Below are positions 20,133-33,671 of a DNA stretch of 33,841 nt, piece after piece. Under the pieces are notes generated by a model. That model was not told the DNA's origin and did not search any database. It saw nothing but the letters and a program-made list of their open reading frames with translations. A program made the translations under genes and the position numbers. This stretch comes from Chloroflexota bacterium (GTDB lineage: Bacteria; Chloroflexota; Anaerolineae; Aggregatilineales; Phototrophicaceae): positions 1 through 33,841 of the forward strand of contig JAPPFH010000019.1 in NCBI GenBank assembly GCA_028875185.1, in the 5' to 3' direction. Position 1 is the first letter of the stretch, and every line of letters begins with the position of its first letter.

Positions 20133-20927
20133 ATGCGACTCAAAGGCAAAACCGCAATCGTGACCGGCGGCGCGAACGGCATCGGCGCCGGCTGCGTCCA
20201 GCGCTTGGCGGATGATGGCGCCAAAGTCGTCATCGCCGATATCGACGATGCGGCCGGGACCGCGCTCGCGACAGCGTTGGGCGATCGGGTCATTTACGTC
20301 CGCTGCGATGTCGCCGAACGCGCGTCGGTCGAGGCGCTGTTTGACGCGGGCATCGCAGCCTTCGGCGCTGTCGATATCCTGGTCAATAATGCCGCCTTTG
20401 TGCACAAACCGGGCGTCATCGCCAACTTTCTCGAATACAGCGAAGAATCCTGGCGTAAGACGCTGGCGGTGAATCTGACCGGCATGTTCAATTGCTCGCA
20501 GGTTGCCGCTCGGCTGATGGCGAAGCGGGGGCAAGGCGGCGTCATCATCAATATGAGCAGCGGCGGCGCCTCGCGCGCCCATCGCCATATGTTCGGTTAC
20601 GACGCCAGCAAGGGCGGCATTGAAGCGGCCACGCGGGCAATGGCGCTCGATCTGGCCGGGCTGAACATACGGGTGAACGCCATCGTGCCGGGCAGCACAC
20701 GCGTCGAGCACGGCACATCGGTCGGTGATTCGCCGAACCCGCCGGAGGCAGTCATCCCGCTGCCGCGCCAAGGGACGCCAGCTGATATCGCGGCCGCGAT
20801 CGCGTTTCTGGCTTCCGATGACGCCGCTTATATTACGGGGACGCGCATCGTGGTCGACGGCGGCATGGATGCGCAACTGCGCAGCCCGGCGGTGGATTAC
20901 AGCAGCGATTTCAGCGAGTATCTATAA
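20133..20927 (+). CDS. short-chain dehydrogenase/reductase (SDR)
   Basis: This is a classical SDR of 264 residues, an NAD(P)-dependent oxidoreductase of unknown substrate. It has the cofactor motif TGGANGIG, an acidic residue at the end of the second strand (IADIDD, favouring NAD), the NNAA motif, a catalytic Ser in INMSSGG and a YDASK catalytic tetrad segment. NAIVPGSTRVEHG and the C-terminal ITGTRIVVDGGMD are typical. I chose the ATG at 20133 with AAGGA upstream; the frame extends to a TTG 6 bases earlier. It follows the hydantoinase/flavoprotein genes but is separated by palindromic repeats. Its stop overlaps the convergent moeA-PBP gene by 6 bases. Confidence 0.9.
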   Translation: MRLKGKTAIVTGGANGIGAGCVQRLADDGAKVVIADIDDAAGTALATALGDRVIYVRCDVAERASVEALFDAGIAAFGAVDILVNNAAFVHKPGVIANFLEYSEESWRKTLAVNLTGMFNCSQVAARLMAKRGQGGVIINMSSGGASRAHRHMFGYDASKGGIEAATRAMALDLAGLNIRVNAIVPGSTRVEHGTSVGDSPNPPEAVIPLPRQGTPADIAAAIAFLASDDAAYITGTRIVVDGGMDAQLRSPAVDYSSDFSEYL

Positions 20928-22844
20928 GGTTGCGACAACGCGCCCGGTATCATCGCTGCGATAGCCGCTCTGCGCCCCCAATTCCCGCTTGAAATCATCG
21001 TCTCGCAGCAGGTCTAGCAATGCCTGAATACCTGCATTCTCCAGGCGCCGCTTTGGAATCGCTAGGTCGAAGCGTTCCCAGGTCACCCCGATGAATTCCA
21101 GCCCCATCGCCTCGGCCGCGCTGCGCAAGCCCATGCCGCAATCGCCGATGCCATCAGCCACCGCCGCCGCCACCGCCAGGTGCGTATATTCTTCATGCTC
21201 ATAACCGGAGATGTCAGCGGGCGCTAGCTGATGCTGTGCCAGGAGATGATCGAAGAGCACGCGCGTGCCCGCGCCCCGCTGCCGATTGATATAGCGCAGG
21301 CCTCTAAGGTCGGCGACGGACCTGATGCCTTTGGGGTTGCCAGTGGGCAAGATCAAACCCTGCTCGCGCTGGGCGAAGGTCACCAACTCGATCGGCTCGT
21401 CCGGCAAATAGCGCTGAATATAGGGGACGTTGTAGCGCTTGGATTCGGGGTGGAAGAGATGACAGCCGGCGATATGCGCTTCGCCGCGCCGCAGCGCAAT
21501 CAATCCGCCGACTGAGCCGACATTGATCGATACAAGCCGCCGGCTTGAGGCGCGGAGGCGGATATGCGTCGCCAGCAGGTCCAGCATCGGGTCGTGGCTG
21601 CCCATGATCAGCAGCGTATGCTTGATGAGAGACAGAGACCGATAAAGAGAGACCATCAGCGTACCGCCGCGATCGACTCCTTCGTGGAAGCGCGGGATAT
21701 GCGCCAGCCCGTCAGCCTCGACCAGCGAGGTGATGACGCCAGCGCCGCGCTGCAATGGCGTCGCTTGAAGACTCCCGTCAATTTCAGCCAGCGCCACGCG
21801 CAGGAAATCGTCATCGCCGATCGGCGAGGCGATCTTTTGCGTCGCCACAGCATCGACAGTGGCCGCTGCCGGCGGCGTGAGACCCAGCCATTGCCGTATC
21901 AGCGGGATGATGAACAACTCGCCGGTGAGCGCAGCGCTGACGGGGTAACCGGGCACGCCGATGATGGGAATTCCTGAGGCAATGCCGATGATTACCGGAT
22001 GCCCCGGGCGCACGGCGATGCCATGCGCTAGCGCCTCGCCCAGCGCCTTGATCGCGTTTGCGGTGAAGTCGTGGCTGCCCGCCGATGAGCCAGAGAGGAT
22101 CAAGATCAGATCCGGGTTTGAAGCGGTCGCGTTGGATAATGCGGCGCTCAACGCGGATTCATCATCGGGGACGATTGCCGTTGCGCGCGCGTCGCCGCCC
22201 GCGTCGCGGATCTGGCTACTGAGAATCAAGCTGTTGTATTCGATCAGTTGCCCGCGCTCCGGCTGCTGCTGAATTGGGACGAGCTCGCCTCCAGTCGGGA
22301 TAATCAGGACGCGCGGTTTGCGCCGCACGTTCACCTGCTGATGGCCGCAGCCAGCTAAGGCGCCCAAGTCCACCGGGCGCAATTCATGGTTGACCTGCAA
22401 TACCGTTTCGCTGGCGACCATGTCTTCGCCCATCAAGCGCACATGCTGCCAGGGCGCGGCGGCGGCGTAAATCATTATGGTCGATTCGTCAGCTTGGTTG
22501 ACATTCTCGATCATGATGACGGCATTGGTGTCGTCAGGCAGCGGATCGCCCGTGTTGACCGGGAACGCTTCCGACCCAAGGCGCAAGGGCAGCGCCCGCG
22601 TCTCGCGCGCCGATATGGTAGAAGCTGCGGACACCGCGTAACCGTCCATGGCGGCGCAGTGAAAATGCGGCGACGACAAGCGCGCCCGGGCCGGCGCCGC
22701 TGTCACGCGGCCCAGCGCCTCGTCCAGCGGGACGGGCTCGCCTGGCAGCGGCGCCGCTTTTCCGGCGCTGGCCAAAGCCGCTTGCAGCTTCGCTCGCGCT
22801 TCGTCCAGGGGAATGTCTTCGAGAAAAATTCGCCGCTTCGCCAT
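20922..22844 (-). CDS. moeA: MoeA fused to a PBP-like (periplasmic-binding-protein-type) domain
   Basis: This is a molybdopterin molybdenumtransferase with an added sensor-like domain, 640 residues against about 400 for plain MoeA. Residues 1-405 are MoeA: SPHFHCAAMDGYAV, GDPLPDDTNAVIMIE, the IPTGGELV...EYNS segment, ILSGSSAGSHDF and VPGYPVSAAL. From about 415 a second domain (LLIMGSHDPMLDLLA..., VGSVGGLIALRRGEAHIAGCHL, RGAGTRVLFDHLL, DCGMGLRSAAEAM) matches the PBP-like domain found with MoeA and ModE-type proteins in other bacteria. The last step of molybdenum (or tungsten) cofactor synthesis is the likely role of the first half. AAAGGA lies just before the ATG. It follows the shorter moeA by 66 bases on the same strand, so the two are probably co-expressed. 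Confidence 0.92.
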   Translation of the reverse strand: MAKRRIFLEDIPLDEARAKLQAALASAGKAAPLPGEPVPLDEALGRVTAAPARARLSSPHFHCAAMDGYAVSAASTISARETRALPLRLGSEAFPVNTGDPLPDDTNAVIMIENVNQADESTIMIYAAAAPWQHVRLMGEDMVASETVLQVNHELRPVDLGALAGCGHQQVNVRRKPRVLIIPTGGELVPIQQQPERGQLIEYNSLILSSQIRDAGGDARATAIVPDDESALSAALSNATASNPDLILILSGSSAGSHDFTANAIKALGEALAHGIAVRPGHPVIIGIASGIPIIGVPGYPVSAALTGELFIIPLIRQWLGLTPPAAATVDAVATQKIASPIGDDDFLRVALAEIDGSLQATPLQRGAGVITSLVEADGLAHIPRFHEGVDRGGTLMVSLYRSLSLIKHTLLIMGSHDPMLDLLATHIRLRASSRRLVSINVGSVGGLIALRRGEAHIAGCHLFHPESKRYNVPYIQRYLPDEPIELVTFAQREQGLILPTGNPKGIRSVADLRGLRYINRQRGAGTRVLFDHLLAQHQLAPADISGYEHEEYTHLAVAAAVADGIGDCGMGLRSAAEAMGLEFIGVTWERFDLAIPKRRLENAGIQALLDLLRDDDFKRELGAQSGYRSDDTGRVVATL

Positions 22845-22910
22845 TGGTCCTTTACCAGAATATAGGAACGATTCGTCAAAAGACCCGATCGCTCAGCGCC
22901 AGGCAGACGC

Positions 22911-24149
22911 TCATAAAAGCCGCGCCTCAATTATGGCGCCCGCTTCAATGCCGCCAGTATTCAGCGGCACGCGCAGCAAGCCATCGGCGCCGATCAGCGT
23001 GAAAATCAGATTGGATTTGCCGAATATTGGTTCAGCCATTGTCCCGCCATCTTCGGCGAGCGTCAACTTGACTGGCAGCCAGTCTTCGCGGCCCGTCACC
23101 GAAGCGACGCGTTGTGACAATCTGGCTGTGCGGGTGGCGGGCGGATGTGGCTTCCGCCCCAGGTGGCGGGCGATCAGATGGGGCAAGAGCTGCCATGCCA
23201 CCAGCAGCGCCGAGGCCGGATTGCCCGGCAAGCCAATGACCGGCTTATTGTCGCAGACGGCGATGATGGTCGGTTTGCCTGGTTTGGTCGCCAAGCCATG
23301 CTGCAAGACGCCGGGCTCACCCAATCCATTGATGACATCGCGCGTGTAATCGCGCGCCGAAACGGAACTGCCGGCGCTCAAAAGCAGGATATCGCAGCGG
23401 GCAAAGCCGGCCTTCGCGCGCTGACGATAATCCGTCAAGGAATCAGAGGCGATGCCCAGCCGCAGCGGCGCGCCATCATGCTTTTCCGCCAAGGCGCTCA
23501 GGGTGTAGGCGTTGATGTCGCGCACCATCCCCGGCGTCAAAGTCGCGTCCGGCGGCGTCAATTCGTCGCCGCAACTGAGGATGCCCACACGCGGCATCGC
23601 CAAAACATTGACTTCGTGAAGGCCGACCGCGAGCAAGCCGCCGATATCCTGGGCGCGCAGCCGATGCTGGCGCGGCAAGACCAAGGCGCCCGCGATGATA
23701 TCTTCGCCGGCTTGGATGACATTCTCGCCGGGCGCGGCGGCGCGCAAGATTTCAACTTCGTCCTCATCGATGGCTTGCGCGTATTCGACCATGACGACAG
23801 CATCCGCGCTCGCCGGCAGCATGCCGCCGGTATGGATGAGCAGGGCGTCGCCGCCAGCGATGTCGACCGGCGGCGCTTCGCCCATCTTCAACTCGCCGCG
23901 CAGCCGCAGAATTGCCGGCAGCGATTGGCTCGCGCCGAAGGTATCGGCGGCGCGCAGGGCATAACCATCAACCGCGCTCTTGCGAAAAGCGGGAATCGGC
24001 TCGGGCGAAAACGCGTCGGCGGCGAGGACGCGGTCCAACGCGGCGGCGGTCGCCATGATCTCCCTGCGGGGCTGCGGCTGCCAGCGCCTGTCCAAGAGCG
24101 CTAGCGCATCGGCGACTGGAAGGACTTGGAAGAACTCGGGAGAGGGCAT
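22911..24149 (-). CDS. moeA: molybdopterin molybdenumtransferase MoeA
   Basis: This is a standard-length MoeA (412 residues) that inserts molybdenum, or possibly tungsten, into adenylated molybdopterin. Motifs in order: KSAVDGYALRAADT, an IHTGGMLPASADAVVMVE segment, GENVIQAGEDI, GILSCGDEL, RDINAYTLSALAEKHD, LLLSAGSSVSARDYTRDVI and IGLPGNPASALLV. A modest AGGA lies about 11 bases before the ATG. Two MoeA paralogues in one operon is a pattern linked in other organisms to separate handling of Mo and W. That link is inference here. The genes lie next to the formate dehydrogenase cluster that needs this cofactor. Confidence 0.93.
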   Translation of the reverse strand: MPSPEFFQVLPVADALALLDRRWQPQPRREIMATAAALDRVLAADAFSPEPIPAFRKSAVDGYALRAADTFGASQSLPAILRLRGELKMGEAPPVDIAGGDALLIHTGGMLPASADAVVMVEYAQAIDEDEVEILRAAAPGENVIQAGEDIIAGALVLPRQHRLRAQDIGGLLAVGLHEVNVLAMPRVGILSCGDELTPPDATLTPGMVRDINAYTLSALAEKHDGAPLRLGIASDSLTDYRQRAKAGFARCDILLLSAGSSVSARDYTRDVINGLGEPGVLQHGLATKPGKPTIIAVCDNKPVIGLPGNPASALLVAWQLLPHLIARHLGRKPHPPATRTARLSQRVASVTGREDWLPVKLTLAEDGGTMAEPIFGKSNLIFTLIGADGLLRVPLNTGGIEAGAIIEARLL

Positions 24150-24371: not shown

Positions 24372-24923
24372 ATGTTCAGTCGCACGATTCGCATCTTCTT
24401 TGCAGCGCTCTTTGTGTTCTGTGTTGTGCCAATGGCTGCTTTTGCTCAGGACGATGGCAGTCCTCCCGCTAATCAACCGACTAGCGTCGAGCAGATGATC
24501 CCCTTTAACGTCTCTGATGTTCGTCAGAATAATCCTACAGCGATACAATCGCTTCGGGAAGCGGGTCTGTCAGACGCAGAGATAAATGACATAAGAAGTA
24601 ACGTAGCGGCTTCATCCGCTAGTATAGGTGAGTATACTCAAGCTCAATCAGACATGACGCGCTGGTTCCTTCGTCAGTGTGATGTTGGGCGGAGGTCTTG
24701 GATTGTCTTTGATATCGGTCCTGGTGGGCTTGGAACGCTGACGACTTACCAGCAATTTTCGAATCTCACCACGATAGTCGTAGATAAGGAAGAAAATGCC
24801 TGTCCTGTTGATGCAATCTGTGGGTTTATTTCATGGGTGCAAAGACCGGGCTTGGCGCCGTACCTATGGGGAATACGCTACAACGGTCCTGTCGCGGCTC
24901 GCTACTCATGGTGTTCGCGTTAA
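24372..24923 (+). CDS. secreted hypothetical protein (183 aa)
   Basis: I do not recognise this family. A signal peptide is clear (MFSRTIRIFFAALFVFCVVPMAAFA, cleavage after AFA near residue 25). The mature part starts acidic and Pro/Asn-rich (QDDGSPPANQPT), contains a helical region with LREAGLSDAEINDIRSNV, and ends with a Cys- and aromatic-rich portion. Three late Cys (ENACPVDAIC, WCSR) and one at about residue 104 could form disulfides. A strong AAAGGAG ribosome site lies 8 bases before the ATG. TTGCAG-N16-TATAGT at 24326-24353 resembles a promoter but would start transcription inside the ribosome site, so the real promoter is probably further upstream in the AT-rich DNA. G+C is lower than in the neighbours, suggesting acquisition. 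Confidence 0.7.
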   Translation: MFSRTIRIFFAALFVFCVVPMAAFAQDDGSPPANQPTSVEQMIPFNVSDVRQNNPTAIQSLREAGLSDAEINDIRSNVAASSASIGEYTQAQSDMTRWFLRQCDVGRRSWIVFDIGPGGLGTLTTYQQFSNLTTIVVDKEENACPVDAICGFISWVQRPGLAPYLWGIRYNGPVAARYSWCSR

Positions 24924-24938: not shown

Positions 24939-25022
24939 TTGCATCGTAAATCAAGGTGCTAGAGAAGTTGTTGTGCCCGTCCTGGCGTACTATCTTAGAG
25001 TCGCTGGACGGGCACGATGCAA
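24939..25022. terminator. nested inverted repeat after the secreted hypothetical, possible terminator
   Basis: A perfect 10-bp stem (GTGCCCGTCC at 24973-24982, GGACGGGCAC at 25006-25015) has a 23-base loop. It is embraced by a 9-bp pair, TTGCATCGT (24939-24947) and ACGATGCAA (25014-25022). It lies between the two hypothetical genes. There is no T-run, so termination is uncertain. It could instead be a protein-binding site or an insertion scar. Confidence 0.45.
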
Positions 25023-25037
25023 GTTAGAGGTCGCAGT

Positions 25038-25532
25038 ATGTCGATAACCACAGGCTACATGGACGATGATGAAGATCCCTTCATTTATTTCAATAAGGCG
25101 GAAAGGAAGCGCTTGCCGGTTTCGGATGAAGCGCTCAACATCCTAATTTCCGTTGCCAAGCAATGCTACCGAGTCCTGCATCCGATAAAATCAGGGATGA
25201 GTGTGCAGGATTGCTGGACGCAATTCGTGCGCAGCAACTACTGCGCTTTTTTAGTTGTACAACGGATTGACCGTGTCGGTAATGGGGATCTCGCTGCCTT
25301 ATACACTAAGTTCGATATTCCGCATCTTGAAGATACGCTGCCCGCCTTGGTTACGGCATACGAACAGTGCCGCTCAATCTGGACCAATACCGATTTCGAT
25401 GATGTCATAGAGGTGCATGCTGTGTTGGACGACATCGGCGACAAAATGTATCCCGATTGTTTCGATCGGGATGTCTATCAGCAGTTAAACGACTTCTTTG
25501 CGGATTTTTTGTCTGGCGGAGAATTCTCCTGA
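25038..25532 (+). CDS. hypothetical protein (164 aa)
   Basis: I do not recognise this protein. It looks soluble, mostly helical and acidic, with an N-terminal acidic cluster (DDDEDPF) followed by a basic KAERKR and then long amphipathic segments. There is no signal peptide or membrane segment. I place the start at the ATG before SITTGYM, where AGAGG lies 7 bases upstream. The frame opens 7 codons earlier inside the preceding hairpin. Its last 55 bases overlap the 3' end of fdhD on the other strand. It shares the lower G+C and plus orientation of the secreted hypothetical upstream, and the two may form one inserted unit. Confidence 0.65.
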   Translation: MSITTGYMDDDEDPFIYFNKAERKRLPVSDEALNILISVAKQCYRVLHPIKSGMSVQDCWTQFVRSNYCAFLVVQRIDRVGNGDLAALYTKFDIPHLEDTLPALVTAYEQCRSIWTNTDFDDVIEVHAVLDDIGDKMYPDCFDRDVYQQLNDFFADFLSGGEFS

Positions 25533-26341
25533 CCGCTGAGATCTCGCTTCGCCAAGCCCAGCCGCCAGCCGTGGGTATAGACGCGCATGCCGCCGCTGCG
25601 CGCGTAACCGACGACGCAGATGTTCCAGGCTTGCGCCAATTCCAGCGTGACGCTAGTAGGCGCTGTGCGGCTCGCCACCAGCGGGATGCCCATGCGCCGC
25701 GCCTTGCCCAGCATCTCCGAGCTGATGCGCCCGCTCGTCAGCAGAATCCGGTCGCGCGTGTCGATGCCATCCAGCAGCGCTTGACCGGCCACCTTGTCGA
25801 CGGCGTTATGCCGCCCGACATCTTCGCCGCTAAGCAACAGCCCGCCCTCGCCGCCGAGAGCCGCTGTATGCACGCCGCGCACGGCATTGTACAAGCGCGC
25901 CGCGCCCTGCAGCTGCCGCATCAAGCGGAGGATGCGCGCGGGCTCGGATTGGAAGGCGGAATCGAGCGCGGGAAAATCCTTGGAAAGTTCTTGCCCGGTC
26001 ACGCCGCCGCCGCAGCCGGTCGTCAGGATCATGCGGCGCGGGAGCTTAACTTCGCCGCGCGTCAGCATCACATCGGCAACCGCGTTCGTGCGGTTGAGTT
26101 GCAGCAAAGCGATCTCAACGGCGGAATCAATTACCGCTTCGTTGTAAAGGAAGCCGACCGTCAGCGCTTCCAACTGCACTGGGCTGCACATCATGGTCGC
26201 CAGCGATTCGCCATTGACGTAGATCGATAGCAATTGCTCGTCAATCACGCCGCCTTCGATCTGGCGGATCTGGTCGCCTTCGACAACTTGATAGGTGAAG
26301 GGCAGCGCGCCGTCGAGTTTTTCCCTCGCTTTAGTCGCCAT
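25478..26341 (-). CDS. fdhD: formate dehydrogenase accessory sulfurtransferase FdhD
   Basis: FdhD transfers sulfur from a cysteine desulfurase to the molybdenum cofactor of formate dehydrogenase, which activates the enzyme. Recognisable segments are VNGESLATMMCSPVQLEALTVGF, the TTGCGGG loop with the conserved catalytic Cys (Cys110), LTGEDVGRHNAVDKV-like SGEDVGRHNAVDKVAG, and LTSGRISSEML...ASRTAPT. The second Cys of the E. coli CxxC loop is Gly here. The start is the ATG at 26341, which overlaps the 3' end of the HoxU-like gene by 11 bases and has AGGTGAAGG just upstream. The C-terminus runs about 25 residues past the usual end (YTHGWRL), as a charged tail overlapping the convergent hypothetical gene. 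Confidence 0.93.
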   Translation of the reverse strand: MATKAREKLDGALPFTYQVVEGDQIRQIEGGVIDEQLLSIYVNGESLATMMCSPVQLEALTVGFLYNEAVIDSAVEIALLQLNRTNAVADVMLTRGEVKLPRRMILTTGCGGGVTGQELSKDFPALDSAFQSEPARILRLMRQLQGAARLYNAVRGVHTAALGGEGGLLLSGEDVGRHNAVDKVAGQALLDGIDTRDRILLTSGRISSEMLGKARRMGIPLVASRTAPTSVTLELAQAWNICVVGYARSGGMRVYTHGWRLGLAKRDLSGQENSPPDKKSAKKSFNC

Positions 26342-27047
26342 CGCCTTCACCTGATTTGCGCTTCTTTCCGCGCCGCGTCTTCTGGCGCATCTCATCGGCG
26401 CTCCAACCTTGCTCCATACCCCATTGCGCCTTTGGCTTGAGGGCGCCAGTCGGGCAGACGCCGATGCACTGGCCGCAGAAGACGCAGGGCGAGTCGGTCA
26501 TGGCGATATCAAAAGCGGTGGCGACCGATGTTTCATGTCCGCGATTCTTAAGCGTCAGAGCGAAGGTGTATTGCGCGTCTTCGGCGCAGACTTGCACGCA
26601 GCGCCAGCAAAGGACGCATTGCTCGTAGTCACGCACATAAAAGGGATTGTCGTCAATTAACGTATGTTCACGTAAATGCGCATCAGGGAAGCGCGCTTCG
26701 TCAGCGGCGTAATCGCCCATCATCTGCTGGATCTCCGGCGCTTCGTCCAGATTCACCGAAGCGTTCAGCATTTCGAGGATGGTGCGCCGGCTGCGCTCGA
26801 CCCGTTCATTGCGCGTTTCCACTTTGGAATCGGCTTGGCATTCGGCGACGCAAGCTGGCTGCAAGACGCGCCCGCCATCGACATCGACGACGCAAATGCG
26901 GCAGAGGCCGTTGGGCGTGGTCGCTTCGTGGTAACAGATGACCGGGATGTCGACGCCGGCTTGGTTTGCCGCGTCGAGGAGGGTGGCGCCTTTGGGGATC
27001 TCAAGCTCGGTTCCATCGAGCGTTAGCTTAATCACGTTTTCAGCCAT
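26331..27047 (-). CDS. HoxU/NuoG-N-like 2Fe-2S and 4Fe-4S electron-transfer subunit
   Basis: This is a 238-residue iron-sulfur protein resembling the N-terminal part of NuoG and the HoxU subunit of NAD-linked hydrogenases and formate dehydrogenases. The first domain binds a 2Fe-2S cluster through Cys38, Cys49, Cys52 and Cys66. A linker with RSRRTILEML follows. Two 4Fe-4S motifs come next: Cys144, 147, 150 and 154 (CVLCWRCVQVC), and Cys188, 191, 194 and 198 (CVFCGQCIGVC). It would pass electrons between FdhA and the NuoEF-type diaphorase. The chosen ATG overlaps the nuoEF stop by 8 bases (ATGGCTGA); an ATG 12 bases earlier, with AAGG close by, is an alternative. The tail is strongly basic (KTRRGKKRK). 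Confidence 0.9.
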   Translation of the reverse strand: MAENVIKLTLDGTELEIPKGATLLDAANQAGVDIPVICYHEATTPNGLCRICVVDVDGGRVLQPACVAECQADSKVETRNERVERSRRTILEMLNASVNLDEAPEIQQMMGDYAADEARFPDAHLREHTLIDDNPFYVRDYEQCVLCWRCVQVCAEDAQYTFALTLKNRGHETSVATAFDIAMTDSPCVFCGQCIGVCPTGALKPKAQWGMEQGWSADEMRQKTRRGKKRKSGEGDGD

Positions 27048-28758
27048 GCTGTTGTCCATTCGCCTTAAACAACTCCGGAAACTGCTCAATCGCGCTCATG
27101 ACGGCGATGCCGGCGGTATGCCCCAAGCCGCAGATGGACGCTTCCGTCATCGTCAAGCCGATATCCATCAGCCGCTCGGCATCGCCCGCTTGTGGCGCAT
27201 CCAGCCGCTCGAGGATTTCGACTTGGCGTTGCGTGCCTAGCTGACAAGGGAAGCATTTGCCGCAGCTCTCGTGCTGGAAAAAGCGTCCCAGCCGCTTCAA
27301 CATATCGCGCAGGTCGGTCGTTTGATTGAAGACCATGATCGCGCCCGAGCCGAAGGTGCTGCCGGCTTCCCGCAGATCCTCGAAGGTCAGGCGCACATCA
27401 CTGTCTTCGGGCTTCAAGAACGTGCCGGCCGCGCCGCCCATGAGAACCGCCTGCAATTCACCGATGACCCCGCCGCAGACCTCGTCGAGGAAGTGGCGCA
27501 AGCTGATGCCCGGTTTGATCTCGTAAACGCCCGGGCGCGCCACGTGCCCGCTGACCGATACCAGCTTGGGTCCGGCGCTGCCGTCGCTGCCGATTCCCCT
27601 GAACCAGTCGGCGCCCTTCGATATGATGCTGGGCACAGCGCAGAGCGTCTCGACATTGTTGACCGCGGTCGGCTTTCCGAAGAGACCGAATGTCGTGGGG
27701 TAGGGTGGTTTCATGCGGGGGAAGCCGCGCTTGCCTTCGATCGCTTCAAATAGCGCTGTTTCTTCGCCACAGATGTAGGCGCCGGCGCCGCGCCGCAATT
27801 CAATGTCTAGCTCGTCATCATCGCCCATGCTCGCTCCCCCAAGCAAACCGGCCGCTTGCGCTTCGCGAATCGCGTCCGCCAGAATCGCGGTCGCCTTGGG
27901 ATATTCGCCGCGGATGAAGATGATGGCTTTGTCCGTGCCCACGGCATAAGCCGCCAGCGCGATGCCCTCAAGCAGCAGATGCGGGCGATGCTCCATCAAC
28001 ACACGGTCTTTGAAGGTGCCTGGCTCGCTCTCATCGGCGTTGCAGACGATATACTTGATATTGCCGTCCGCGCCGCGGGTGAACTTCCATTTCAAGCCCG
28101 TAGGGAAGGCGGCCCCCCCACGCCCGATCAGTCCGGAGGCTTCGACCTGCGCGATCACCTCTTCCGGCGACATTTCTGAAATAGCCCGCCGCAGCGCTTT
28201 GTAGTCGCCATACTCGGCTAGCGTCTCCGGCGCGGCTCTAAGCCTAGGATTGAGCAGCGCCGAGCGATTGTCGCCCGCCGGCCTGAAATACTCGCCCGTC
28301 CATTCGCCGAGCAGCGCATCCACCGTTACATTTGGCAGCGCGACATCGACCTCGCCGCGCGCGCTCGCCAGCGCGGCCGGCGCGTAATCGCACATGCCGA
28401 GGCAAGGCGAGCGCTCTACGGTGTATTCGCAATCGGCGGTCGTCTCGTCCGGCGCGATGTCGAGGCGGGCGCAAGTTTCGCGCAAGACGTCGTCAGCGCC
28501 CTTAAGCGCGCAGGTCGGGTCGGTACAAATGCGGATAATGCGGCGGCCGGTTGGCTGATCGTGGAAGAGCGTATAAAAGCCTATCACGCCGAAGATATCG
28601 GCTTCCGGCACACGCAGCAGGTGCGAAATTTCGTGTACATGTTCGGGGCTGATGCTGCCGAAAGCGCCTTGCACATCCCAGAGGACTGGCAGCAACGCTT
28701 CGCGTCCGCGGCTTTGGTACTTCGTAAGAAGCGTATCGACGCTGGATTGAATCGTCAT
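27040..28758 (-). CDS. NuoE-NuoF fusion, NADH-oxidising (diaphorase) subunit
   Basis: This is a fusion of the 24-kDa-like and 51-kDa-like subunits of NAD-linked complexes, 572 residues from the ATG. The NuoE part (about 1-150) has the 2Fe-2S Cys at 78, 83, 119 and 123, with spacing identical to E. coli NuoE. The NuoF part has the NADH/FMN site GRGGAAFPTGLKW, NADESEPGTFKDR, GAGAYICGEETAL, and the 4Fe-4S loop SCGKCFPC with a later Cys in SICGLGH. It would exchange electrons between FMN/NAD and the HoxU-like subunit. A GTG six bases before the ATG is an alternative start. No ribosome site is seen, and a TACAAT box sits 6 bases upstream of the ATG. The HoxU-like gene overlaps its end. Confidence 0.93.
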   Translation of the reverse strand: MTIQSSVDTLLTKYQSRGREALLPVLWDVQGAFGSISPEHVHEISHLLRVPEADIFGVIGFYTLFHDQPTGRRIIRICTDPTCALKGADDVLRETCARLDIAPDETTADCEYTVERSPCLGMCDYAPAALASARGEVDVALPNVTVDALLGEWTGEYFRPAGDNRSALLNPRLRAAPETLAEYGDYKALRRAISEMSPEEVIAQVEASGLIGRGGAAFPTGLKWKFTRGADGNIKYIVCNADESEPGTFKDRVLMEHRPHLLLEGIALAAYAVGTDKAIIFIRGEYPKATAILADAIREAQAAGLLGGASMGDDDELDIELRRGAGAYICGEETALFEAIEGKRGFPRMKPPYPTTFGLFGKPTAVNNVETLCAVPSIISKGADWFRGIGSDGSAGPKLVSVSGHVARPGVYEIKPGISLRHFLDEVCGGVIGELQAVLMGGAAGTFLKPEDSDVRLTFEDLREAGSTFGSGAIMVFNQTTDLRDMLKRLGRFFQHESCGKCFPCQLGTQRQVEILERLDAPQAGDAERLMDIGLTMTEASICGLGHTAGIAVMSAIEQFPELFKANGQQHG

Positions 28759-28764
28759 AGCCAC

Positions 28765-28770
28765 ATTGTA
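28765..28770 (-). promoter_or_regulatory. possible -10 box giving a leaderless nuoEF transcript
   Basis: On the minus strand TACAAT lies six bases before the nuoEF ATG, so transcription would begin at or next to the A of the start codon. No ribosome site is present. A -35 partner is weak (TTGCAG at a spacing of only 14), so this is tentative. Confidence 0.3.
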
Positions 28771-28799
28771 ACAGATTGTGGTGGCTGCAATCTTGGCGG

Positions 28800-29423
28800 C
28801 TAATCTGCCGCACGGAGCAGAAGCTCCGCTTCCGCAAGTTCTTCGGGCGTGTTGAGATTGACGAAGGAGCGCCCCAACGGGTCAAAGGCGGCGTAGTCGG
28901 TCTCGTCAAGATAACGCACACGCATCTGGCCATAAAAGCGGATGATCTTCAGCCGGTCCGCCGCCAACTGTCGCGCGATGGGTTCGATGCAGGTTTTCTT
29001 GTAGATTGCGTGCAAACCTTGCGGATAACCGTCGACGGTCGGCACGACGATGTCGATGTCTTCGTCCATTTGCTCGACCATGTAGCGGAGCAGGCTGATA
29101 TTGACGAAGGGCATGTCGCAGGCCAGGACCAGCACGTCAGGTCTCTTCGCGCTAAGGAGCGCGGTATAGATGCCGCCGAGCGAGCCCTTGTTCGGCAAGA
29201 TATCCTGGCGCATTGGCAAACCCAGGCGGGCATACTGCGCAGGCTTGTTCGTTATAAGGATCGTGTCGGCTTGGGCCAGGTCAGCGCTGCGCCTGATGAC
29301 ATGCTCGATGAGCGCTTTGCCGCCGAGCTCGACGAAGGCTTTGTCGCGCCCCATGCGCCGGCTTTGCCCGCCGGCGATGATGGCGAGGGAGAAGCTTAGG
29401 CCTAGCCAAGTGGCAGGCTTCAT
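28800..29423 (-). CDS. mobA: molybdenum cofactor guanylyltransferase MobA
   Basis: MobA attaches GMP to molybdopterin to form the guanine dinucleotide cofactor used by formate dehydrogenases. The N-terminal IIAGGQSRRMGRDKAFVELGG is the GTP-binding signature, and ACDMPF (metal-binding Asp) and VVPTVDGYPQGLHAIYKK are also typical. The length (207) is normal. It begins three bases after the stop of the third HEPN gene (TAG, GTT, ATG) and ends about 41 bases before nuoEF, so it is probably transcribed with both. Its position ties cofactor supply to the formate dehydrogenase. Confidence 0.93.
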   Translation of the reverse strand: MKPATWLGLSFSLAIIAGGQSRRMGRDKAFVELGGKALIEHVIRRSADLAQADTILITNKPAQYARLGLPMRQDILPNKGSLGGIYTALLSAKRPDVLVLACDMPFVNISLLRYMVEQMDEDIDIVVPTVDGYPQGLHAIYKKTCIEPIARQLAADRLKIIRFYGQMRVRYLDETDYAAFDPLGRSFVNLNTPEELAEAELLLRAAD

Positions 29424-29426
29424 AAC

Positions 29427-29777
29427 CTAGACTTCAGGCCCGACAATCGCTTCCAATTGCCCAATAAGCGGTGGAATGTGTTCAGTCACAGTTTCCCAAA
29501 GGACATCGTGGTCGATTTCATCATATCTATGTGCGATGATCAGCCGTATACCCTTAATTTCTCTCCAAGGAATCTCGGGAGTTTCCGCCTGTAATTCGTC
29601 CGAAATCTTGCAGGCAGCTTCACCTACAATTTCTACAGCTCGGTCAAGAGCGAGACGAAATTGATCGTCGGAATCAATGTCATCGCGAGTTCTTCCTTCA
29701 GCGAATTGACACGCGAGTCTCGCGTGATCCAACATATGCTGAAGACGAGCCTGGTCGTTTTCACGGCTCTTTTTCAT
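29427..29777 (-). CDS. hepT: HEPN toxin, HepT-like (module 3)
   Basis: This is a 116-residue helical HEPN-domain protein of the HepT/MntA (type VII) toxin-antitoxin class, a probable RNase. The active motif RX4HXY is intact at Arg78, His83 and Tyr85 (RLIIAHRY). Shared landmarks with the other two toxins are NDQARLQHMLDHA near the start, RLAL, VGEAA and EIPWREI. I place the start at the ATG at 29777, which overlaps the end of the partner antitoxin gene by 17 bases exactly as in module 2. The open frame runs 29 codons further but only through the antitoxin gene. mobA follows three bases after the stop. Confidence 0.85.
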   Translation of the reverse strand: MKKSRENDQARLQHMLDHARLACQFAEGRTRDDIDSDDQFRLALDRAVEIVGEAACKISDELQAETPEIPWREIKGIRLIIAHRYDEIDHDVLWETVTEHIPPLIGQLEAIVGPEV

Positions 29778-30072
29778 AAATAGGCAATGCGCTATCAATA
29801 ACATCTTGGCGAAAATAGCGGCTAAGCGACTTGGGTGTACACAAGTCAACGCGTCGGCCAACAATCTCTATCAGGTCGGTTACATGTCGACCCATATCAA
29901 AATAGCTGATACGCGCATCGGGCATGTATTCGACCAGCAAGTCAATGTCACTCTCGTCTGTCAGTTCGCCACGCGCGGCCGAGCCAAAGACCGACAGGCG
30001 GCGTATTGGCTGCGTCTCGCAATACGCGCGAATCTTTTCCAGCGGCAGGTTAATCGTGACGGTTTCGCTCAC
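29761..30072 (-). CDS. mntA: MNT-domain antitoxin, MntA-like (module 3)
   Basis: This is a 103-residue minimal nucleotidyltransferase, the antitoxin partner of the downstream HEPN gene. In characterised MntA/HepT pairs the antitoxin AMPylates the Tyr of the RX4HXY motif. The catalytic signature FGSAARGELTDESDIDLLVE is complete (Gly-Ser and the Asp-x-Asp), and a later VDLC supplies the third acid. I place the start at the GTG at 30072, because the sequence from there (MSETVTINLP) aligns end to end with module 2 and gives the same 103-residue length. The open frame could begin at a TTG 21 bases earlier. It begins 26 bases after the stop of the module 2 toxin. Confidence 0.85.
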   Translation of the reverse strand: MSETVTINLPLEKIRAYCETQPIRRLSVFGSAARGELTDESDIDLLVEYMPDARISYFDMGRHVTDLIEIVGRRVDLCTPKSLSRYFRQDVIDSALPIYEKEP

Positions 30073-30098
30073 GGTTACATTCTCTTCAGTCAATGGAG

Positions 30099-30452
30099 TC
30101 AGCGCTTGTCATCTACTAGAATGCGCTGCAATTCGGCGATGAGATCTGGGATATCAACGACGACTGTATCCCAAACTACCTCAAGTACGACATCGCGATA
30201 GTTGTGAATCAACCGATTGCGCATGCCTACAATTTTCGCCCACGGAATCTGTGGATTTGCCGTCCTACATTCAACGGTCACCTTGCTGGCTGCTTCTCCT
30301 ACAGTTGCAAGTACATGCAATAACGCCAATTGCAATCGCCGGTCGCGCTCAAGGGAAAGACGAGTTTCTCCGCCTGACTGTTCCCGCGCTTCCAAAGCCC
30401 AATCCAACATATCCCGCAAGTGGATAGGATCGTTTTCAGGACTTCTCTTCAT
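30099..30452 (-). CDS. hepT: HEPN toxin, HepT-like (module 2)
   Basis: This is a 117-residue HEPN protein of the HepT/MntA class. RX4HXY is intact at Arg78, His83 and Tyr85 (RNRLIHNY). It aligns without gaps to the module 1 toxin over the full length and to module 3 up to the active site (NDPIHLRDMLDWA, VGEAASKVT, IPWAKIVGMR). The ATG start overlaps the end of the module 2 antitoxin gene by 17 bases, so the pair is translationally coupled. Predicted to be an RNA-cleaving toxin kept in check by AMPylation. The cellular target is not known from sequence. Confidence 0.87.
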   Translation of the reverse strand: MKRSPENDPIHLRDMLDWALEAREQSGGETRLSLERDRRLQLALLHVLATVGEAASKVTVECRTANPQIPWAKIVGMRNRLIHNYRDVVLEVVWDTVVVDIPDLIAELQRILVDDKR

Positions 30453-30747
30453 AAATCGGTCTTGCGCAGTCTATCACCTGTTGACGAAAGGTCTTGCGCA
30501 ATTCTTCTTTCATGCGGAGATCTACCTTCCGCCCAATTAGATTGCCAAGGTCAATTTCATGCCCCGCAAGTGTCAAAAGCGTAACTGTTGTCCCAGGACG
30601 ATATTCTATGAGCAAATCAATATCGCTCTCATCTCTGAGTTCGCCTCGCATCGCAGAGCCAAACAGCGACAACCGCGCTATCGGCTGCGTCTCGCAATAC
30701 GCGCGAATGGCTTGCACCGGCAGGTCGATAGCGACGGGCTCGCTCAT
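30436..30747 (-). CDS. mntA: MNT-domain antitoxin, MntA-like (module 2)
   Basis: This is a 103-residue minimal nucleotidyltransferase with the complete signature LFGSAMRGELRDESDIDLLIE: Gly30-Ser31 and the catalytic pair Asp42/Asp44. The N-terminal IRAYCETQPIARLS is nearly identical to that of the other two antitoxins. The start is ATG; no strong ribosome site is seen. It begins 26 bases after the stop of the module 1 toxin and overlaps its own toxin gene by 17 bases. Predicted to AMPylate and silence the HEPN partner. Confidence 0.87.
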   Translation of the reverse strand: MSEPVAIDLPVQAIRAYCETQPIARLSLFGSAMRGELRDESDIDLLIEYRPGTTVTLLTLAGHEIDLGNLIGRKVDLRMKEELRKTFRQQVIDCARPIYEEKS

Positions 30748-30773
30748 GGTTTCAGGTTATCCAATCGCTTGTG

Positions 30774-31127
30774 TCAGTGATTTTCATCTTCAAGTATGCG
30801 TTGCAATTCGGCAAGCAGCGGTGGAATATATTCGGAGACCGTAGTCCAGACTATGTTCAAATCTACCGCATAATAGACATGAACCAATTTGTGCCGCATA
30901 CTTATGATTTCAGTCCAAGGAATGGCGGAATACGCTCGTCTTGATTCCGCCGTTACGTTGTTCGCCGCTTCGCCTATGACTTGTAAAGTTCTGGTCAACG
31001 CCAAACGCAGGGCTACATTTTCGTCGAGGGAAAGGCGCGATTGACCGGAGGCGATGCGCTCAGAGGTTTGCGCCCAATCCAACATATGACGAAGACGGGT
31101 CGGATCATTCGCCAGCGTCTTCGGCAA
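30774..31127 (-). CDS. hepT: HEPN toxin, HepT-like (module 1, TTG start)
   Basis: This is a 117-residue HEPN protein when read from a TTG at 31127. That start is chosen because the product then aligns without gaps to the module 2 toxin from the first residue (NDPTRLRHMLDWA, VIGEAANNVT, IPWTEIISMR). It also places the start inside the end of the antitoxin gene, as in the other modules. The frame is open upstream to an ATG at 31199, but that part is simply the antitoxin gene in another frame. RX4HXY is intact at Arg78, His83 and Tyr85 (RHKLVHVY). The weak start codon would lower its expression, which matters because its antitoxin appears inactive. Confidence 0.8.
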   Translation of the reverse strand: MPKTLANDPTRLRHMLDWAQTSERIASGQSRLSLDENVALRLALTRTLQVIGEAANNVTAESRRAYSAIPWTEIISMRHKLVHVYYAVDLNIVWTTVSEYIPPLLAELQRILEDENH

Positions 31128-31425
31128 AGACAACTGTCGCTCCGGCAAGGATCTGCTGTTTACTAGTTGGTTCAAGCTCGTTTGGCGTACGCAAGTCAAC
31201 TGCGCCGCCCAGAATCTCGCTCAATATGCGTTCTTGCCGCGCCATATCTATATATGTTACGGACGCATTAGGAAGATACTCTACCAGCATTCCGGTTTCC
31301 GTTTCCGGTCGCAACCAGGCATCAAAGCCCGATCCTAGCAGTGACAACCGCGCAATTGGCTGCGTTTCGCAGTAAGCGCAGATTTCTTCGACCGGCAAAG
31401 CAAGGGGAGCCACTAGGTCGCTCAT
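31105..31425 (-). CDS. degenerate MNT-domain antitoxin (module 1), catalytic Asp pair lost
   Basis: This 106-residue protein is homologous to the module 2 and 3 antitoxins (CETQPIARLS, LVEYLP, VDLRTPNEL). The nucleotidyltransferase signature is damaged. GSAxRGE has become GSGFDAW, and the catalytic Asp-x-Asp has become Glu43-Thr-Gly45. The later Asp in VDLR remains. It should not AMPylate, so it could work only as a binding antitoxin or be a decaying gene. The ATG has a good AAGGGAAG ribosome site. It starts 56 bases after the fdhA stop and overlaps the module 1 toxin gene by 23 bases. Confidence 0.82.
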   Translation of the reverse strand: MSDLVAPLALPVEEICAYCETQPIARLSLLGSGFDAWLRPETETGMLVEYLPNASVTYIDMARQERILSEILGGAVDLRTPNELEPTSKQQILAGATVVFAEDAGE

Positions 31426-31481
31426 GATCTTCCCTTAACATCAACTAAACAAACGCTTGGCTATTCTAGCGTAAAACAAGC

Positions 31482-33623
31482 TCAATGCACATAGCGCACG
31501 GGGTCTTTGATCGCGCCTTGCTCTTCAAGCGCGGTCGCCGCCCGCTCCACCTTCTCGAGCTTGACCGCTGCCATCTTGAAGTCGGGGATCTTGGCGCGCG
31601 GGTCGATCTTGTCCAGCGTTAGCAAATTGGCGGCCGCCTCGACGAAGTGGAAGGGCAGGAAGAGCGTGCCGGCCGGCGAACGACCGGTGACCATGACTTG
31701 GCACTCGACCGAGCCGCGGCGCGAGGTGATGCGCAGCCAATCACCGGAGACGACCTTCAGCGCGCCAGCGTCGGCCGAGTGCATCTCGACGACTGGCGCC
31801 GGGAAAGCCTCTTCCAGCCGCGAGCTGCGCGTCATCGTGCCGCCATGCCAGTGGAAGAGCACGCGCCCGGTCGTCAGATGATAGGGATACTCGTCATCGG
31901 GCAGTTCGCTTTCCGTGCCGTATTCCAACTCCCAGAATTTGCCTTTGCCGCGCGGGAATTCATCTTCGAACAGGTAAGGCGTGCCTGGATGTTCGGCCGC
32001 TGGGCAGGGCCAATGCACGCCGCCTTCTTCATCCAGCCGGGCGTAACTGATGCCTTGGAAATCGGGCGTCAGCGCGCGCATCTCTTCCCAGATCGCTTCT
32101 GGATCGCGATATTCAAAGCCGGCGCTTTCCTCGACGCCGAGCTCGGCTTCCATGCGCTTGGCGAGCGCGCAGATGATCTGCCAATCAGGCAATGACTCGC
32201 CGACCGCCGGCAATGCCTGACGGACGCGCTGTACGCGCCGGTCGCTGTTGGTGAAGGTGCCTTCTTTCTCGGCGAAGCTGGCTGAAGGCAAAATCACATC
32301 GGCCATTTCACCGGTTTCGTTCAAGAAGATATCGATGCAGACCAATAGATCCAATTCTTCAAGGGCGTGCCGCGCGTGCGATAGGTTCGGCTCGCTCATC
32401 ATCGGGTTCTCGCCCATGACGATCATGGCTTTAATCTGCCCCATGAGCGCGGCATCAACCATCTCGGTGACGGTCAAGCCCGGCTGGGGATTCAGGTCCG
32501 CGCGCCAGGTCGTTTCAAACTTCCGCCGGATATCTGGATCGGCCACCGACTGATAAGCGGTGTAGACATTGGGCAAGCCGCCGCTGTCGGAGCAGCCTTG
32601 CACATTGTTCTGCCCGCGCAGGGGATTCAGACCCGTGCCCGGCTTGCCTGCGTGGCCGCACATTAGCGCCAGATTCGTCAGCGAAAGCGCGTTATCGGTG
32701 CCATGCGTGCTTTGGCTGATGCCCATGCCCCAGTAGAAGGCGGCGCGCTCGGCGGTGGCGTACATGCGCGCAGCTTGACGGATATCGTCGGCGGGCACGC
32801 CACTGATCGTCTCCGCCCACTCCGGCGTGCAGCGCTCCAACGATTCGATATAAGTTTCGAAGCCTTCGGTGCGCGCCTCAATGAATTCGGGATTGAAGAG
32901 ATTCTCGGTAACGATGACATTCGCCATCGCTTGAAAAACGGCAACATCAGTGCCCGGCTTTTGCCGCAGCCAGAGCGTCGCGAAGTCGGTCAATTCGATT
33001 TGGCGCGGATCAATCACGATGAGCTTGGCGCCGTTCGCTCGAACCGCCTTCTTCAAGAACAGGCTGATGACCGGATGCGTCTCGGTGGTGTTGCTGCCGG
33101 TGACGATGAAGGTGTCGAGGTGTTCCATCTCGGCGATGCTGTTGCTCATGGCGCTTGAGCCGATCGCCAGCTGCAAGCCGGTCACGCTGCCGGCGTGGCA
33201 GAGGCGCGCGCAATGATCGACATTGTTGGTCTTCATCACCGCGCGCACCCATTTCTGAAAGACGTAATTGTCTTCGTTGGTCGCTTTTGCGCAGGCGTAT
33301 GTCGCGATGCTGTCGCCGCCATGCTCGCGTACAATCGCGGACAGCTTGTCGCTGATGGCGCCGAGCGCTTCATCCCAAGTTGCCTCGCGGAAATTCCCGC
33401 GCGCGCCATCGCGGATCAGCGGTTTCTTCAGGCGGCGGGGATGCGTGGCGAAGTCGAGCCCGAAGCGCCCTTTGACACAGAGATTGCCGAAATTCGGCGC
33501 GGCCTCAAATGGCGCCTCGACGCGGTAGATCTGTTCGTCCTTAATGTGGAGATTCATCTGACAGCCAACGCCGCAATAGGGGCAGGTCGTCCGGACGATG
33601 GAATCAGGTCGCAGTTTGTTCAT
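31482..33623 (-). CDS. fdhA: formate dehydrogenase catalytic (molybdopterin) subunit FdhA
   Basis: This is a 713-residue molybdopterin oxidoreductase that oxidises formate to CO2, or the reverse. The N-terminal 4Fe-4S ligands are Cys14, Cys17, Cys21 and Cys49 (CPYCGVGC...NLCVKG). The active site HCARLCH has the Mo-ligating Cys142 (Cys, not selenocysteine) and His143, at positions close to U140 and H141 of E. coli FdhF. The C-terminal dinucleotide-binding domain follows (YHLTTGR...HGGTMTRSS). It lacks the N-terminal 2Fe-2S/4Fe-4S extension of long NAD-linked forms, which is supplied here by the separate HoxU-like subunit. The ATG at 33623 has GGAGGGG 4-5 bases upstream; the frame is open for 16 more codons. 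Confidence 0.95.
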   Translation of the reverse strand: MNKLRPDSIVRTTCPYCGVGCQMNLHIKDEQIYRVEAPFEAAPNFGNLCVKGRFGLDFATHPRRLKKPLIRDGARGNFREATWDEALGAISDKLSAIVREHGGDSIATYACAKATNEDNYVFQKWVRAVMKTNNVDHCARLCHAGSVTGLQLAIGSSAMSNSIAEMEHLDTFIVTGSNTTETHPVISLFLKKAVRANGAKLIVIDPRQIELTDFATLWLRQKPGTDVAVFQAMANVIVTENLFNPEFIEARTEGFETYIESLERCTPEWAETISGVPADDIRQAARMYATAERAAFYWGMGISQSTHGTDNALSLTNLALMCGHAGKPGTGLNPLRGQNNVQGCSDSGGLPNVYTAYQSVADPDIRRKFETTWRADLNPQPGLTVTEMVDAALMGQIKAMIVMGENPMMSEPNLSHARHALEELDLLVCIDIFLNETGEMADVILPSASFAEKEGTFTNSDRRVQRVRQALPAVGESLPDWQIICALAKRMEAELGVEESAGFEYRDPEAIWEEMRALTPDFQGISYARLDEEGGVHWPCPAAEHPGTPYLFEDEFPRGKGKFWELEYGTESELPDDEYPYHLTTGRVLFHWHGGTMTRSSRLEEAFPAPVVEMHSADAGALKVVSGDWLRITSRRGSVECQVMVTGRSPAGTLFLPFHFVEAAANLLTLDKIDPRAKIPDFKMAAVKLEKVERAATALEEQGAIKDPVRYVH

Positions 33624-33642
33624 AAGTCCCCTCCCCAAGCCA

Positions 33643-33671
33643 ATTGTAATCGCAACGGCCGCTTTGACCAA
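33643..33671 (-). promoter_or_regulatory. promoter of fdhA
   Basis: Read on the minus strand, the -35 box TTGGTC (33666-33671) and the -10 box TACAAT (33643-33648) are separated by 17 bases. Transcription would start about 13 bases upstream of the fdhA ATG, just ahead of its ribosome site. The -35 box lies inside a palindrome. Confidence 0.55.

Follow-up and report, generated by a model that had tools for sequence, protein, structure and literature searches.

A conserved clade of MNT-type antitoxins without the catalytic Asp-x-Asp in a formate dehydrogenase operon of Chloroflexota

Three MNT-HEPN modules behind fdhF

The window, that is, the whole stretch of 33,841 nucleotides analysed here, corresponds to contig C59 in a draft genome of 4.37 Mb; among named records, its close relatives are Chloroflexi/Anaerolineae genomes assembled from metagenomes. 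On the minus strand, fdhF is followed by three MNT-HEPN modules (29427-31425 within 25478-33671), and the neighbours of this array are formate dehydrogenase genes, namely fdhF, a mobA-like, a NuoE/F-like and a HoxU/NuoG-like gene and fdhD. The features discussed below are:

31482..33671, minus strand: fdhF, formate dehydrogenase alpha subunit, upstream gene (TIGR01591, above cut-off)
31105..31425, minus strand: MNT1, antitoxin-type minimal nucleotidyltransferase without DxD, 106 amino acids, clade A
31315..31335, minus strand: GSGFDAW, residues 31-37 of MNT1, at the position of GSAxRGE (alignment)
31291..31299, minus strand: codons E43-T44-G45 of MNT1, at the position of the catalytic Asp-x-Asp (alignment with MNT2 and MNT3)
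30774..31127, minus strand: HEPN1, HepT-like toxin, RX4HXY intact (Pfam and motif)
30436..30747, minus strand: MNT2, antitoxin, GSX10DXD intact (Pfam and motif)
30099..30452, minus strand: HEPN2, toxin, RX4HXY intact (Pfam and motif)
29761..30093, minus strand: MNT3, antitoxin, GSX10DXD intact (Pfam and motif)
29427..29777, minus strand: HEPN3, toxin, RX4HXY intact (start ATG at 29777; 29427-29864 in the list of open reading frames)
28800..29423, minus strand: mobA-like molybdenum cofactor guanylyltransferase, downstream gene (below the cut-offs of the MobA models)
27040..28764, minus strand: NuoE/NuoF-like fused subunit, next gene downstream

The gaps amount to 56 nt between fdhF and MNT1, 26 nt between HEPN1 and MNT2, 5 nt between HEPN2 and MNT3 and 3 nt between HEPN3 and mobA. 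A scan of positions 29300-31700 returned two promoter-like sites, where 2.1 are expected, and four terminator-like sites, where 2.5 are expected (sd 1.7), none of which lies on the minus strand. Elsewhere in the window, two adjacent MoeA-like genes are found on the minus strand (20922-24149), one of which has a C-terminal PBP-like domain, and two open reading frames of 183 and 171 amino acids on the plus strand (24372-24923 and 25017-25532) have no Pfam match at E<=1e-5 and may not be genes.

MNT1 lies directly upstream of the HepT-like gene HEPN1 and overlaps it by 23 nt when the toxin is read from a TTG at 31127, its likely start codon, which is present at the toxin start in all 11 loci of the clade A described below. 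The resulting protein of 117 amino acids contains R78, H83 and Y85 and thus the RX4HXY motif, and it matches PF01934 with 68.9 bits (cut-off 23.5). Pfam recognizes all three HEPN proteins of the window as HepT-like, and HEPN2 and HEPN3 possess RX4HXY with the arginine likewise at position 78. Scores against the NCBIfam HepT model are below its cut-off of 60 for HEPN1 (24 bits), HEPN2 (30.7 bits) and HEPN3 (28 bits), and a sequence search with HEPN1 against solved structures gave no match at E<=0.01. Judged by its family and motif, HEPN1 would be an active, toxic RNase.

MNT1 is an MNT without the catalytic motif

MNT1 shares 46% identity with MNT2 and 42% with MNT3. In the alignment, the DID of these two proteins falls on E43-T-G45 of MNT1, and GSGFDAW stands where MNT2 and MNT3 have GSAMRGE and GSAARGE; the GSX10DXD motif is therefore incomplete in MNT1, with GS present and E-T-G in place of DxD. 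The third carboxylate, D77 (31195-31197), is retained. These differences had been described in an earlier note made from the DNA alone, and the alignment confirms them, as it does the note's Arg78, His83 and Tyr85 of HEPN1, whose numbering holds from the TTG at 31127. Since the second metal-binding Asp is a Gly, the first a Glu and the GS/R loop is rebuilt, MNT1 should not transfer AMP; its lack of AMPylation activity is predicted from the motif.

Family models hardly recognize MNT1: no Pfam family was found at E<=1, NTP_transf_2 being detected in MNT2 and MNT3, and there was no match to the NCBIfam MntA model, to which MNT2 and MNT3 score 44.3 and 47.1 bits, below the cut-off of 60. Searched against solved structures, the MNT1 sequence matched 1wot with no better than E 0.034, and a profile of the MNTs without an intact DxD, hereafter called dead MNTs, also found 1wot (E 1e-5), with weaker rows that are not MNTs. 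PADLOC assigns MNT1 to the candidate family PDC-S09 (1e-7), which was not counted as evidence for phage defence. The AlphaFold2 model of MNT1 has the MNT (Pol beta-like) fold (pLDDT 87.5, pTM 0.81). By Z score, its 12 best structure matches (8.9 to 6.9) are all MNT or HEPN-MNT entries and are followed by ribosomal proteins at Z 5.7; Foldseek gives TM values of 0.61-0.65 across its first eleven rows. Among the best fold matches is 6m6u, the complex of the Shewanella D39E,D41E variant. The long C-terminal helix alpha4 is absent from the model.

The loss of DxD is conserved

A total of 61 genomes including that of the window were searched, of which 42 gave matches. Orthologues of MNT1 occur in ten further genomes of the genus with 56-97% identity; all are open and none has DxD. 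Together with MNT1 they form clade A (11 rows), in which Gly (ten proteins) or Ala (one protein) replaces the second Asp, ten members have Asp or Glu at the first position and the remaining one has Ile, and D77 is retained in 11/11. Invariant stretches persist down to 56% identity. The median omega is 0.26 for the clade A antitoxins (MNT-A), 0.14 for their partner toxins (HEPN-A) and 0.12-0.14 for active MNTs, indicating purifying selection; for MNT-A, the value is about twice that of active MNTs, so that constraint is relaxed, with single pairs reaching 0.53, and 1.51 in the short motif stretch. Sequencing error, chance or a lone pseudogene were considered as explanations for the missing DxD and are ruled out by the ten orthologues without DxD and by omega.

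Within clade A, helix 58-72 is better conserved (0.84) than the active-site stretch (0.62), the difference of motif minus helix being -0.22 [-0.35, -0.09]; the interval spans zero in four groups of active MNTs, and for the second dead clade, clade B, the difference is not clear (-0.10 [-0.25, 0.05]). Helix 58-72 is taken as the alpha2 of published structures, as it directly precedes the third strand.

The survey comprised 169 distinct MNT domains, left after removal of four rows identical in DNA from 173: 147 with DxD, 20 dead and two fragments. Its loci were selected for similarity to MNT1 or to the dead profile, and its counts are therefore not frequencies in nature; as the rows are related, a Fisher p of 5e-5, calculated before that removal, serves only as a guide. 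The 20 dead MNTs are the 11 rows of clade A, seven rows of clade B, G019_4546 and a lone protein of genome G008. In a tree built without the motif columns, clade A has a support of 100/98 and clade B of 100/95, and G019_4546 and G008 stand separately. A single origin of both clades is not rejected (p-AU 0.675; 0.645 with G019_4546 included), and the tree forcing A and B together even surpassed the quick unconstrained tree in likelihood; the dead MNTs may thus have one or more origins. Clades A and B and G019_4546 mostly have a stretch F-x-x-W-[LIV]-R-P in common, and Trp occupies the position of W37 in 18/20 dead MNTs, the exceptions being G024 of clade A and G008; Asp or Glu is found there in 134 of 151 active rows, identical rows included. 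Gly or Ala occupies the second metal-binding position in 19/20 dead MNTs, Asp or Glu the first in 17/20, and the GS pair is broken in 13/20. G008, the exception at the second position, is an otherwise ordinary MNT with a lone Asp-to-Ala change, by which only the first Asp is lost.

Outside the genus, none of 56 distinct surveyed MNTs (59 before removal of identical rows) is dead, and none was seen at the 23 loci looked at in a phylum-wide search of 400 genomes, 21 of which matched at E<=1e-15; both sets were capped as well as picked by similarity and are no census. A plasmid search returned five records, each below 60% identity and all presumably cyanobacterial, judging from their names.

Partner toxins and the acceptor tyrosine

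By the pairing rule used, 123 of the 169 MNTs have a downstream HEPN and 46 do not. The HEPN motif was readable in 106 of the 123 pairs, and the other 17 (15 with active, two with dead MNTs) stand outside the Tyr counts. Beside active MNTs, 89 of 91 toxins read RHY, one RHN and one RRY, and none RHF; the odd motifs RRY and RHN belong to L153 (G000:C43) and L192 (G125). The 15 toxins beside dead MNTs comprise 11 RHY, all clade A, and four RHF, all clade B. The acceptor Tyr is hence kept in 11/11 clade A toxins and replaced by Phe in 4/4 clade B toxins, and those clade B pairs cannot use that Tyr. In these four toxins, profile columns 50, 68, 75, 80 and 91 still carry E, W, R, H and W, and a few other well-conserved columns are also variable in clade B; the 90 comparison rows were chosen as RHY, so that their 100% Tyr is by choice. 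HEPN-A retains most of the columns that are best conserved among ordinary HEPN toxins. On the HEPN tree, in which the Tyr column was left in and the split G019 gene left out, Tyr changed to Phe twice, both times beside dead MNTs; the omitted HEPN gene, which follows G019_4546, is distributed over two frames, and the motif in its second part is RHF.

In G032 and G016, HEPN and clade B MNT are joined in one open reading frame with the motif R-R-F, i.e. with His and Tyr both changed. In a similar HEPN-MNT reading frame of G029 the motif is RHY and the HEPN part lies behind an active MNT; in the model of this fusion the HEPN part is good, and the MNT part, for which the input contained almost no MNT rows, lies mostly below 50 pLDDT. 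Single frames in which HEPN precedes a dead MNT of clade B, opposite to the common gene order, were seen at L040:4980-5645, L062:4383-5486 and L063:5051-6505; two of these three have neither the His nor the Tyr of the HEPN motif. The clade A toxin gene of G028 (L045) has an in-frame stop near its start (1/11), and its antitoxin gene is open. Toxin genes split over two frames occur within arrays of G004, G005, G012 and G019, and active MNTs with no HEPN directly behind them in genomes such as G006, G010, G013, G018 and G023; both point to gain and loss of modules.

A constant place between fdhF and mobA

The order fdhF, array, mobA is found in 30 of the 34 genomes of the genus (in G003, mobA sits at a contig end). 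Each array has between one and four MNTs, in almost all cases accompanied by HEPNs. G027 has fdhF and mobA and neither MNT nor HEPN, and in G014, G031 and G033 no fdhF match was found at E<=1e-30. For other genera of the family, 20 of 23 fdhF matches were looked at: fdhF is followed by mobA without an array at 11 loci of ten genomes, and a single active pair stands between the two genes in G127 and G128. All 20 dead MNTs occupy the fdhF-mobA place, alongside 50 active ones, and of the 41 distinct MNTs surveyed elsewhere in the genus, all are active. Among the 18 arrays with a dead MNT, a dead one is the first of the MNTs behind fdhF in 16. At least one active MNT accompanies the dead one in ten of the 11 arrays of clade A. 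The clade A pair of G024 is the sole module of its array, an active MNT-HEPN pair being present on another contig, and the dead fused frame of G032 is likewise alone in its array. A second fdhF-matching piece lies inside the array of G019 (L043), just before the clade A module, and fdhF of G004 (L060) is in two pieces; these extra or broken pieces reflect either a partial duplication or frame breaks.

Proposed neutralization by binding and its alternatives

MNT1 is kept and its likely docking side is best conserved, and we therefore read it as a former AMP-transferase that may now act as a pseudoenzyme and neutralize HEPN1 by binding, with a probability of roughly 0.52. According to this proposal, the ancestor of MNT1 would have AMPylated its HEPN toxin and the present protein, its catalytic site lost, would be unable to do so; it would have been retained for still folding as an MNT and still docking on HEPN1 via the helix before the third strand and its C-terminal part, and once docked it would block the toxin as a type II antitoxin does. 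Both the binding of MNT1 to HEPN1 and its sufficiency for neutralization are inferred here from conservation. In favor of this reading are the conserved loss of DxD, omega, the higher conservation of the helix compared to the motif, the Phe of the clade B toxins and the sole module of G024. The available text of PMC11586414 names alpha2 as the MNT surface common to three solved HEPN-MNT complexes. For Shewanella, the accessible part of PMC7641770 reports that the change of both Asp to Glu alone abolishes modification and that the hetero-octamer still forms, and that the Tyr which receives the AMPs is not needed for toxicity.

Several observations speak against binding. It does not by itself explain why the acceptor Tyr is kept in 11/11 HEPN-A: if AMPylation were irrelevant, this Tyr could have drifted as in clade B. 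The predicted MNT1 model lacks alpha4, which is said to plug the HEPN cleft, and MNTs without it are reported as non-inhibitory, Legionella excepted (PMC11586414, in excerpt, through which the steric model of Jia 2018 is also taken). The inactive Shewanella MntA is said to neutralize less well than the wild type, and the MntA-HepT interaction is described as weaker than that of a type II pair (both PMC7641770, in excerpt). The doubled omega, the unclear motif/helix difference of clade B and the toxin stop of G028 also count against it.

The kept Tyr of HEPN1 makes AMPylation in trans the main rival: MNT2 or MNT3 would modify Tyr85, and MNT1 would serve as an adaptor or scaffold with no need of catalysis. 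The active MNTs in ten of 11 clade A arrays fit this, as does the tight spacing of the genes on a single strand, which makes joint production of the proteins probable. However, the sole module of G024 speaks against strict dependence on a neighbor, and the four clade B toxins with Phe sit in arrays with active MNTs, so that an active neighbor does not hold the Tyr in place; we regard modification in trans as rather unlikely. It is also tempting to speculate that MNT1-HEPN1 was repurposed from a toxin-antitoxin pair to a regulator, for instance an RNA-binding or RNase switch on its own formate dehydrogenase transcript, as most genomes of the genus have an array between fdhF and mobA and the dead MNTs found lie only there, mostly as the first MNT behind fdhF. 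Active modules share this place, however, which may be only a tolerated insertion site, and HEPN-A mostly keeps the best-conserved columns of ordinary toxins, which makes such a role unlikely. Slow decay, in which MNT1 would be a relic losing its function and HEPN1 harmless or held by the neighbors' antitoxins without modification, could account for the raised omega, the stop in G028 and the frame-broken HEPN genes of several arrays; given an omega well below 1 in MNT-A overall and lower still in HEPN-A, 11/11 open MNT-A frames and the invariant stretches among distant orthologues, it appears very unlikely. Least probable, and hardly to be expected, is a different catalytic activity of MNT1 with E43 and D77 as remaining acidic residues: the first position is mostly acidic in dead MNTs and D77 is kept throughout clade A, but the second position is Gly or Ala in nearly all of them, the GS pair is broken in most, and the Asp-to-Glu double change in Shewanella already ends modification (PMC7641770, in excerpt).

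Neutralization by binding thus fits best among the three readings of the earlier note (binding alone, protection in trans, repurposing), protection in trans being weakened by G024 although the Tyr is kept in all clade A toxins. The homologue survey that the note had proposed showed the loss of DxD to be shared by orthologues in ten other genomes of the genus. Random decay accompanied by frameshifts in close relatives, which the note named as a refutation of its claim, fails for the antitoxin, since all 11 genes of clade A have open frames and evolve under purifying selection. The conserved clade, the second dead clade with Tyr-less toxins and the location of the array in a formate dehydrogenase operon go beyond that note. 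Taken together, one clade of dead modules would have lost the AMP donor and the other both donor and acceptor with the RNase site kept; that both neutralize by binding and are fixed parts of the formate dehydrogenase operon, which they may guard or tune, is a tentative picture that we consider doubtful as a whole.

HEPN-MNT systems owe the name type VII to the enzymatic action of their antitoxin. Naturally occurring dead enzymes beside toxins with an intact motif, together with a Tyr-less clade, offer a ready-made test of whether chemistry is needed or binding is enough, and suggest how an enzymatic antitoxin could turn into a binding one. Their fixed location in the formate dehydrogenase operon prompts one to ask what use the modules are to the cell. 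Among open-licence PubMed Central papers, no report was found that describes inactive MNT antitoxins as a natural clade, nor one that places MNT-HEPN arrays within a formate dehydrogenase operon.

Comparison with known systems

In the available text of PMC7641770, GSX10DXD is called highly conserved, and a motif scan of 15,094 MntA and HepT homologues is described. Excerpts of PMC3710099 describe crenarchaeal clusters of several MNT and HEPN genes as well as fused HEPN domains which lack the RNase motif and are joined to nucleotidyltransferases; in those fusions the nucleotidyltransferase is the active part, whereas in the reading frames of G032 and G016 it is dead and the H and Y of the HEPN motif are changed. 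The MNT of Legionella pneumophila has no alpha4 helix and docks by alpha2 (PMC11586414, in excerpt), and the MNT1 model likewise lacks alpha4; the Legionella protein, however, is reported in the same source to AMPylate its toxin, which MNT1 should not do.

The MntA/HepT system (type VII) of Shewanella oneidensis resembles MNT1-HEPN1 in fold, gene order and partner family, including RX4HXY in HEPN1, and its structures 7bxo, 6m6u and 6m6v are matched by the MNT1 model. Unlike Shewanella MntA, MNT1 is without GSX10DXD and is not expected to transfer AMP, and its model shows no long C-terminal helix. In 6m6u, MntA(D39E,D41E)-HepT, the catalytic Asp residues were lost by engineering and the complex forms; clade A is the natural counterpart. 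In 7ae2, HEPN(H107A-Y109F)-MNT, presumably from Aphanizomenon, the acceptor Tyr was lost by engineering and the complex also forms; here, clade B is the natural counterpart.
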